Shown in pieces: positions 4,166-42,810 of a stretch of 43,070 nt of DNA (positions are counted from its first letter, which is position 1; every line of letters starts with the position of its first letter). Made by a program: the position numbers and the translations under genes. The stretch lies in contig PEUO01000073.1 in the NCBI GenBank assembly GCA_002780715.1, positions 1-43,070 on the forward strand. The letters are read 5' to 3'. Below the pieces are notes generated by a model. The model was not told the DNA's origin, did no database searches, and saw only the letters and a program-made list of their open reading frames with translations. Source of the DNA: Deltaproteobacteria bacterium CG03_land_8_20_14_0_80_45_14. Its GTDB lineage: Bacteria > Desulfobacterota > BSN033 > UBA1163.

Positions 4166-4300
4166 TATAGCAATTTTCAAATGGTTCCACTCGCGGGAGA
4201 GTTAGAAGGCCCTCCTGCGCTAACCTCCTACGCCGAGGCTACGGAGGTCAAGAAGCTTCGGCGGGTAAACAGGAGGCAGTAGGAAGAGCGGATGGGGAGA
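4166..4300 (+). repeat. Dispersed intergenic repeat, copy 2 (with internal insert)
   Basis: It matches the second half of copy 1: tatagcaattttcaaatggt, cgggagagttagaagg, then aggcagtaggaagagcggat. Between gttagaaggc and aggcagtagg it has about 60 additional bases containing gccgaggctacgg and gaagcttcggcggg, which look like a small palindromic element inserted into the repeat. Confidence 0.65.
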
Positions 4301-9424: not shown

Positions 9425-10015
9425 TTAAGGCGGAAGAGGTTCGATATGCCAATCGGTTTCGAAATCCCATAAGGAGACGAAAAAGAAGAGATACTCTAAA
9501 TGAAGAGGAAGCCTGACTGGATCCAATTCGGCCTTGATTCGAAAGTAAGTAGGAATTCCGGGTTCGAGTAGAGAGGAAGACCAAATTTCAAGCTCTTTCA
9601 CTTTAGACATCAGCTTTTTGGCCTCCTCCAAACTGGAAGCAACCGGAGAGGAACGGTTTTCTTCTAGTGTCACTTGATAGACTTTTTGAATGGGATGGTA
9701 TTGGACAGTATGATGAAACTCGTGAGAGGCCACTTTCCGATCCTTCCACCAACTTCTTTTCTGATAAAGATTAATATAAAAGGTGAAGGTCGTCCGTATC
9801 CCCGACTGGATGGCCTCCTCCATCTTCTCCGTAAAACAGTCCTCCACATCGAAACTGACCTTCCAGACCCCATTCGCCCCCTTCACATTGACATCCTTAA
9901 TGGAGGCTTTTTGACAAAAGGCTGAAAGAGGAAAAATCCAGATCAAAAGGAAGGCGATCCCTCCGATGAACCATTGATTTCGTCTCTTGTGTTTCAAATT
10001 GGTTTTGATCGCCAT
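9425..10015 (-). CDS. DUF4390 family exported protein
   Basis: The ORF track starts at 10072, but that lies inside rnpB. ATG 10015 gives a proper export signal: a basic start (KTNLKHKRRNQW), then a hydrophobic core and an Ala-Phe-Cys cleavage region near residue 34. The mature ~160 residues match the DUF4390 pattern (WKVSFDVEDCFTEKMEEAIQ, then GIRTTFTFYI). This is a periplasmic protein of unknown function that co-occurs with NtrY-like kinases, so it may influence the sensor; that is inference. It lies upstream of the kinase on the same strand with a repeat between them. Confidence 0.82.
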   Translation of the reverse strand: MAIKTNLKHKRRNQWFIGGIAFLLIWIFPLSAFCQKASIKDVNVKGANGVWKVSFDVEDCFTEKMEEAIQSGIRTTFTFYINLYQKRSWWKDRKVASHEFHHTVQYHPIQKVYQVTLEENRSSPVASSLEEAKKLMSKVKELEIWSSSLLEPGIPTYFRIKAELDPVRLPLHLEYLFFFVSLWDFETDWHIEPLPP

Positions 10016-10217
10016 AGTGTATAAGTAAAAAAAGGGGATTTTCGAAGGGGACCATAAGCCGAGTTCTGTCATCCCGATCCCGCTTTTCAGTGGGAATCGG
10101 GAGGATGGCCATTTATCTAGGGCCCTGATTGCTCAGGGTCTCAAGCGACCTCACCCGTCCCGCCTTTGTCCCGATGCTATTGCCTCGGGACAAATTTGAA
10201 TGGGCTTTTCTTATCTC

Positions 10218-10252
10218 CCCTGTGGAGTAGGCGTAGCCGCCACTCCACAGGG
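10218..10252. repeat. 35-bp palindromic insert in rnpB, copy 1 (P16/P17 region)
   Basis: CCCTGTGGAGT and ACTCCACAGGG enclose GCGTAGCCGC-type bases, giving an 11 + 4 bp hairpin. The sequence is the exact reverse complement of copy 2. By alignment from memory with E. coli rnpB it falls after CR-III, in the variable P16/P17 arm. Confidence 0.85.
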
Positions 10253-10352
10253 AGGAAGCGGAACCTATTTGGTCTTGCTCCGGGTGGGGTTTACCTAGCT
10301 ACCCCAATCGCTCAGGGTACTGGTGAGCCCTTGCCTCGCCTTTTCACCCTTA

Positions 10353-10387
10353 CCCTGTGGAGTGGCGGCTACGCCTACTCCACAGGG
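10353..10387. repeat. 35-bp palindromic insert in rnpB, copy 2 (P12 region)
   Basis: This is an exact reverse complement of copy 1 over all 35 bases. It sits between ACATACCGCC and GGTAAGGGTG, where E. coli rnpB has the P12 hairpin, so the insert appears to replace the helix tip. Confidence 0.85.
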
Positions 10388-10416
10388 CGGTATGTTTTCT
10401 GTGGCACTTTCCTTAC

Positions 10417-10453
10417 CCCCGTGAAGTGGCGGCTGCGCCTACTTCACAGGGGC
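10417..10453. repeat. Palindromic insert in rnpB, copy 3 (P9 region)
   Basis: This is a diverged member of the same family: GTGAAGT-ggcggctgcgcct-ACTTCAC with CCCC/GGGG flanks. Paired changes (GGAGT to GAAGT with ACTCC to ACTTC) keep the stem. The position matches P9. Confidence 0.8.
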
Positions 10454-10572
10454 AGTCCGTGTTACGGACCACCCTGCCCTTTGGAGCTCGGACTTTCCTC
10501 TCCTCCTCATTTCCCGCTTCGCGTGATATCAGGAGGAGCGACCATCTGCTCCCCTTCGACTCCCCTCCTTTC

Positions 10573-10655
10573 CTGAGATTTCTGGAAAACTGAAGAAATC
10601 TCTGATTAATCAAGAGAGCTTATCGTAGTCTTTTTGAGCTCTCTTCCTTTTTCCT
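10573..10655. repeat. Two-hairpin dispersed repeat, copy A (overlaps rnhA 3' end)
   Basis: GAGATTTCT-10 nt-AGAAATCTC is followed by aatcaagagagc and, after a short spacer, gagctctc. The same order occurs at 42673-42808. The second half is the last ~13 codons plus stop of rnhA. Confidence 0.7.
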
Positions 10656-11103
10656 TTACGATCCTCCTCTGGATCGCTTGATTCGCCAAACGGTCTGCTT
10701 CTTTATTCTCTTCCCTTGGAATGGATTCAATCTCAAAGAATGAAAATGTTTTTAAATTCTGGAGCGCTGTTTTGTGGAGGGCCTTTAAATTCAAATCCTT
10801 CACGCGATAGACCCCTTTAATTTGTCTTTCGACCAATTCTGAATCCGTGAAGATTTGGAGGGTGTTACCCCCCAATCGCTTTGCTTCTCTCAGCCCTAAA
10901 AGAAGGGCCCAGTATTCTGCCTGATTATTCGTCTTGTGGCCGAGATATCGGCTTACCTCCGAAATTTTTTTCCCTTCTCCATTCGTAATCCAAATCCCTG
11001 CCCCTGCACTCCCCGGATTTCCCCTGGAGGCTCCATCAATATAAATGACCAATCGATCTTCTGGTCCCGAGGATTTCATTTCCTGCTTCGATCTCCATCC
11101 CAA
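10606..11103 (-). CDS. Ribonuclease HI family protein
   Basis: RNase HI cleaves RNA in RNA-DNA hybrids. The 165-residue ORF carries the four catalytic acids in order: Asp23 (YIDGASRGNP), Glu63 (NNQAEYWALL), Asp87 (FTDSELV) and Asp137 (NKEADRLAN). It is the compact type without the basic protrusion. ATG 11079 (residue 9) forms an ATGA overlap with the upstream zinc-ribbon gene and may be the true start; the catalytic domain is unaffected. The last ~13 residues (RELKKTTISSLD) are encoded by a dispersed hairpin repeat, so the C-terminus was probably remodelled by that element. Confidence 0.9.
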   Translation of the reverse strand: MGWRSKQEMKSSGPEDRLVIYIDGASRGNPGSAGAGIWITNGEGKKISEVSRYLGHKTNNQAEYWALLLGLREAKRLGGNTLQIFTDSELVERQIKGVYRVKDLNLKALHKTALQNLKTFSFFEIESIPREENKEADRLANQAIQRRIVKEKGRELKKTTISSLD

Positions 11104-40045: not shown

Positions 40046-40468
40046 TTAAATCATCCACATCCGTGGTTCGAGACGAACTTTGTGGACCAGACTTAGGGTT
40101 ATTACACGGCTCGCAACCTCTCCCTATATTCCTGCATATTCCTGTCCTTCAAGAGTGGCTCTTCTTCTCGTAGATGAACTCCAATATGGCCCAAAGAATT
40201 GTAAAAAATACTAATCATCCCCGAAGTTGACCTATTTATATCAAAAATTGAGTATTATAGCAATTTCCAGACGTGGGAAGGGGAGTGAGAATAAGGAAGA
40301 GGGAAGGTTGCTGTTGTTACGGCCGGGTGCAGCAAACTCCTCCCTCTTGCCTTGTCTGATTCGAGCAAAAAATAAATTTTGGCTTGACATTTTCAAGCGA
40401 TTTATGTCATTAATTTAAAAATGTTTTTTAAATTCCCCCTATCGCCTCGAAAACTCAGGAGGATTTTT
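40046..40468. other. Intergenic region with repeat copy 3 and a candidate promoter
   Basis: No gene is visible. 40219-40270 is the dispersed repeat. TTGACA at 40384-40389 is a good -35 about 80 bases before the lytic transglycosylase start, with only weak -10 candidates after it (around 40407). Confidence 0.5.
40219..40270 (+). repeat. Dispersed intergenic repeat, copy 3 (left part only)
   Basis: ccgaagttgacctatttata, then tcaaaaattgag and attatagcaatttcc match copy 1 at 332-382 nearly base for base. The right part seen in copies 1 and 2 is replaced by unrelated purine-rich sequence. Confidence 0.75.
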
Positions 40469-42670: not shown

Positions 42671-42810
42671 ATGAGATTTCTGAAAAAGTCCAGAAATCTC
42701 TGAATACACGGATTAGAAATTTATTGAAAATAAAGAAAAATCTGTGTAATCCTTTTTGGAATCTATGTAATCAAGAGAGCGAAAGGCGGTTTTTCAGAGC
42801 TCTCAAAATT
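42671..42810. repeat. Two-hairpin dispersed repeat, copy B (expanded)
   Basis: GAGATTTCT-10 nt-AGAAATCTC (42673-42700) repeats copy A at 10575-10602, with the same loop length. Then ~66 extra bases containing acacggatta / aatctgtgtaatcc are followed by the shared aatcaagagagc ... agagctctc. Confidence 0.7.

Follow-up and report, generated by a model that had tools for sequence, protein, structure and literature searches.

The STRR of cyanobacteria, short tandem repeats that occur genome-wide, reportedly lie in a variable part of the RNase P RNA and spare its core. Such STRR have been described from the rnpB genes of cyanobacteria that form heterocysts (Vioque 1997, NAR 25:3471, as cited in PMC2858038), and this bears out the statement of the initial annotation that repeat insertion into rnpB was already known from cyanobacteria. 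The Rickettsia palindromic elements (RPE) measure about 100-150 nt (PMC4316617). Here, we analyzed a stretch of 43,070 nucleotides (the window), in which a single rnpB gene carries three copies of one short palindrome. The genome to which the window belongs (G000) has as its RpoD kin the Syntrophaceae-labelled metagenome bins UBA1163, UBA2188, and UBA2208 (Thermodesulfobacteriota).

The rnpB gene of the window encodes a complete class A bacterial RNase P RNA. An alignment to a bacterial RNase P model, proposed by the initial annotation, gave a full-length match to RF00010 (model positions 1-367; 263.4 bits against a gathering score of 100; E value, 6e-85), in which the ribozyme core is intact, as had been claimed. 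The same Rfam alignment assigns the three copies to arms P16/P17, P12, and P9, the names they had been given before. The features of the locus are as follows.

9425 to 10012, minus strand: gene of a DUF4390 protein, downstream of rnpB (PF14334; E value, 4e-40; predicted start codon)
10039 to 10558, minus strand: rnpB, 520 nt, encoding class A RNase P RNA (RF00010, full model length, 263.4 bits)
10202 to 10205, minus strand: GCCC, putative 3' strand of pseudoknot P6 (from the sequence and by analogy with class A RNase P RNA)
10218 to 10252, minus strand: palindrome copy in the P16/P17 arm, loop GCUA, inverted relative to the P12 copy (Rfam alignment)
10353 to 10387, minus strand: palindrome copy in arm P12, stem GTGGAGT / ACTCCAC, loop UAGC (Rfam alignment)
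10417 to 10451, minus strand: palindrome copy in arm P9, stem GTGAAGT / ACTTCAC, loop CAGC (Rfam alignment)
10606 to 11103, minus strand: RNase H gene, upstream of rnpB (PF00075, PF13456)

The GCCC at 10202 to 10205 lies shortly 3' of the P17 copy and is retained across the family. Two other kinds of repeat were seen in the window. In the spacer from the RNase H gene to rnpB (10575-10602) lies a palindrome, GAGATTTCTGGAAAA..AGAAATCTC, which recurs 32 kb away (42673-42700) and may be either a terminator or a repeat. Repeats of 45 and 51 nt containing TATAGCAATTT, 92-93% alike, occur at both window ends (369-413, 4166-4210, 332-382, and 40219-40269) and probably represent another dispersed repeat.

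Inspection of the three arms confirmed that the RNA contains three copies of one palindrome, as the initial annotation had read. The P17 copy matches the reverse complement of the P12 copy at 35 of 35 positions, again in agreement with that reading, while the P9 copy is 89% identical to the P12 copy. Four bases differ between the latter two, and two of these make up one compensatory pair; thus, the divergence and the compensating change ascribed to the third copy stand, with one compensated pair, but its end is better placed at 10451 than at 10453. The chance expectation for such copies, estimated from shuffles, is zero. Each copy folds as a hairpin (-25 to -29 kcal/mol) with about 15 bp, a single bulged base, and a loop of 4 nt, and over the repeat family, compensatory changes are seen at 5 of 14 stem pairs, a number reached in 1 of 500 shuffles. 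The flank pattern CYGCCC..GGGTAAGG is common to P9 and P12. No direct duplication is visible in the sequence at the three arms; the whole unit is itself an inverted repeat.

Three copies in one RNA had been called unusual, and a survey of 128 rnpB genes with both anchors supports this: only the gene of the window has a sequence repeated between arms. The runner-up owed its score to the paired ends of a MITE-like element in G014, and the rest mostly reflected the normal P1 helix. This element (locus L046) is 131 bp long with ends GAGGCTGTGTCGCAAT, lies in the P16/P17 arm, and is matched 56 times in G014 and 41 times in G000; the corresponding site is empty in G009. Inserts in the P12 arms of G010, G411, and G403/G405 are likewise dispersed repeats. 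These findings suggest that in several lineages dispersed repeats have repeatedly come to rest in the arms of RNase P RNA. Separately, the P12 arms of rnpB at L042, L184, and L187-L190 were seen to contain other repeats, which are dispersed in their own genomes, one example being a palindrome of an rnpB P12 arm, GCAATGAGTA, with about 60 matches in a Nitrospinae genome.

The initial annotation had also proposed that the genome and its relatives be searched for the repeat. Ungapped pattern searches gave the impression that it is confined to rnpB, which proved wrong, as the other copies are at least one base shorter and were found with a gapped search. Gapped BLAST yielded two further copies in G000 (C83 and C231). 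From eight copies, a covariance model was then built, which added the loci C104, C147, C12, C115, C47, C249, and C61. In total, related but diverged copies outside rnpB amount to about 9 loci in G000 and, by the covariance model, about 15 in G017 and G022, two genomes of a sister family. Weaker matches were obtained in other genomes and none in most controls; some of the matches scoring under about 30 bits may be look-alikes. The two best copies of G000 fall outside recognized genes: C231 has a TPP-enzyme (ilvB-type) gene on one side and a DUF465 gene on the other, and C83 is flanked by two short open frames with no known domain. For the remaining copies, the location outside genes was judged by open reading frames only. 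A longer conserved repeat encloses the palindrome in G017 and G022 and at C231 and C104, and a second flank type is common to C147, C12, and C115. Matches in Nitrospirota were set aside as one common, coding-like sequence with no full palindrome, and the viral contigs, plasmids, and phages searched for the repeat gave no real match.

The copies inside rnpB form a distinct subtype. All six complete rnpB copies possess a 35-nt core with AGCC, one base longer than elsewhere. The core AGGC[GT][TC]AGCCGCCA is present in 6/6 rnpB copies versus 0 of about 15 copies of the GGC..GCC class elsewhere, which are shorter (P = 2e-5 by Fisher test, for copies that are not independent of one another). An ungapped search for the subtype across 395 genomes of the phylum found it only in G000, G003, G011, and G272, always inside rnpB (L169 being identified as rnpB); a reversed control pattern had no matches in the same genomes. 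G272 belongs to a different family, the other members of which lack the palindrome. In a tree of the rnpB core, in which some rows, including that of the window, are shorter owing to anchor trimming, G272 groups with G031 of its own family (99/96) and G011 groups with its own genus, lending no support to whole-gene transfer of rnpB into either. The flanks of G272 rnpB also match G031. The P12 base ACCGTCC..GGAT, present in 8 of 15 genes of family f1, occurs outside f1 in 1 of 109 genes, that of G272, which suggests, from this one genome, that the P12 arm alone was transferred into its rnpB. It is possible, and we offer it tentatively, that a palindrome lineage has become specialized to RNase P RNA, its 35-nt subtype having gone from the rest of the genome while spreading between the arms of one rnpB and, through single-arm swaps at conserved flanks, between the rnpB genes of different families. 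If true, the arms of RNase P would be evolving as modules that can be exchanged.

The history that we favor, as a moderately probable one, is that a dispersed palindromic repeat was captured in variable arms of RNase P RNA and was then copied from arm to arm, occasionally between species, instead of making three independent jumps. The location of the repeat, its dispersal, its lineage specificity, the subtype found only in rnpB, and the chimeric P12 arm of G272 are observations; the copying step within rnpB is what we infer. On this view, the initial annotation was correct on the anatomy of the locus and for the most part on its origin. The source would be a short palindromic repeat dispersed chiefly in the intergenic DNA of the host's class. 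As a self-folding hairpin with a CCC/GGG clamp, it could be exchanged for a native hairpin tip, and since this would leave the core untouched, selection would tolerate the insert. Inside rnpB, it may have spread through recombination over short tracts or through template switching, with the CCC/GGG clamps and the conserved P9/P12 flanks as the sites. That a mobile palindrome (REP- or MITE-like, with a transposase acting in trans) inserted three times independently, either preferring hairpin tips or being tolerated only there, seems rather unlikely to us. Dispersed copies do exist, and the arms of relatives host other dispersed elements (the G014 MITE and the P12 inserts of G010, G411, and G403/G405), but the exact subtype is limited to rnpB, the P12 and P17 copies agree at 35/35 positions, and flanking duplication was not seen. 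As the GTGGAGT stem of these two copies also turns up in copies elsewhere than in rnpB, separate insertions keep some probability. The identity of the two copies may go back to recent insertion or to gene conversion, as the initial annotation had suggested.

Since the P12 and P17 copies are complementary, the initial annotation had suspected that they could mispair, and folding calculations favor this, as a prediction, by about 12 kcal/mol. Taken separately, the two hairpins sum to -57.3 kcal/mol, compared with -82.1 kcal/mol for the P12-P17 duplex (nearest-neighbour). The full-length minimum-free-energy structure (-278.9 kcal/mol) contains the 35-bp duplex, while the structure with both hairpins local has -266.8 kcal/mol; when the orientation of P17 was flipped in silico, both arms stayed local. 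In a model without the pseudoknots P4 and P6, without tertiary contacts, and without protein, the complementarity is therefore a predicted folding hazard. During transcription, P12 is finished about 100 nt ahead of the start of P17, and it would close before P17 exists, which presumably secures the native fold. These energies could also be taken to mean that the duplex is an inactive, regulatory state of the enzyme, a functional switch. We regard this as very improbable: the energies come from the limited model just described, 4-nt loops close both hairpins, and the pairing is not kept in relatives, the P17 copy of G003 probably being decayed.

It is also highly unlikely that the palindrome was placed in a wrong arm during assembly of the metagenome bin. 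Of the 6 assemblies of the same genus, 3 (G001, G004, and G400) have a broken rnpB or none, versus 14 of 389 others, which marks the locus as hard to assemble, perhaps on account of the hairpin repeats themselves. However, the full RNase P model is matched with arms and core intact, and G003 and G011, which are independent assemblies, have similar hairpins in P12 and P9, respectively.

Related rnpB genes, which the initial annotation had proposed for comparison, lack the hairpin at the corresponding tips in near relatives. In G002, the P12 and P17 tips are short, P12 has no palindrome, and the P9 hairpin is different. G001 has a minimal P17 arm with no palindrome copy, and its contig ends within a P12 hairpin with matching ACTTCACAGGG, a truncated copy of the GTGAAGT type. 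G003 carries a GTGAAGT-type copy in P12 and probably a decayed copy in P17, and has a different P9 tip; the P9 tip of G007 is also unlike that of the window. In G011, of another genus, the palindrome is found in P9, inverted. Because the tips of near relatives differ or are shorter in each arm, the hairpins of the window are lineage-specific additions and not ancestral helices; gains and losses within the genus are not countable, as the order of forks there is not settled. As a separate observation, the P12 tip of G009, G014, and G015 (L041, L046, and L047), GTGAAATATTATTTCAC (GTGAAATA-TT-ATTTCAC), resembles the palindrome minus its core and, judged by its letters, may be what is left of a family member after deletion of the core. 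The initial annotation had held that kin with the same arms, together with a genome free of further copies, would speak for simple ancestral helices; we found kin without the hairpin and diverged genomic copies. That these are ancestral arms with a mere resemblance is thus scarcely credible, for although all three copies sit at natural arms, the tips of near relatives contradict it, none of the 127 other rnpB genes has an arm-to-arm copy, and diverged copies lie elsewhere in the genome.

Capture followed by copying between arms would show how essential structured RNAs can grow by the uptake of ready-made hairpins. The inserts are datable against relatives without them, and two arms that are perfect 35-nt complements and must still fold locally provide a sharp folding test. 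Like the cyanobacterial STRR, the palindrome is a genome-wide repeat that has entered variable regions of RNase P RNA and spares the core; unlike these short tandem repeats, it is one dispersed palindrome in three separate arms, not in tandem. The 131-bp MITE of G014 is likewise a dispersed palindromic element in an rnpB arm, in the same family, but it is longer, has terminal inverted repeats, and is present as a single copy in the gene. With the REP/RAYT system, the repeat shares the form of a short palindromic hairpin dispersed in intergenic DNA, in places within a larger conserved unit, although its copy number is low. Rickettsia also has palindromes in functional RNAs; at 35 nt, the palindrome of the window falls outside the RPE length range, and RPE also enter reading frames, whereas no coding insertion is established here. 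As repeats in cyanobacterial rnpB and palindromes in functional RNAs of Rickettsia are known, the locus described here is a variant of these.
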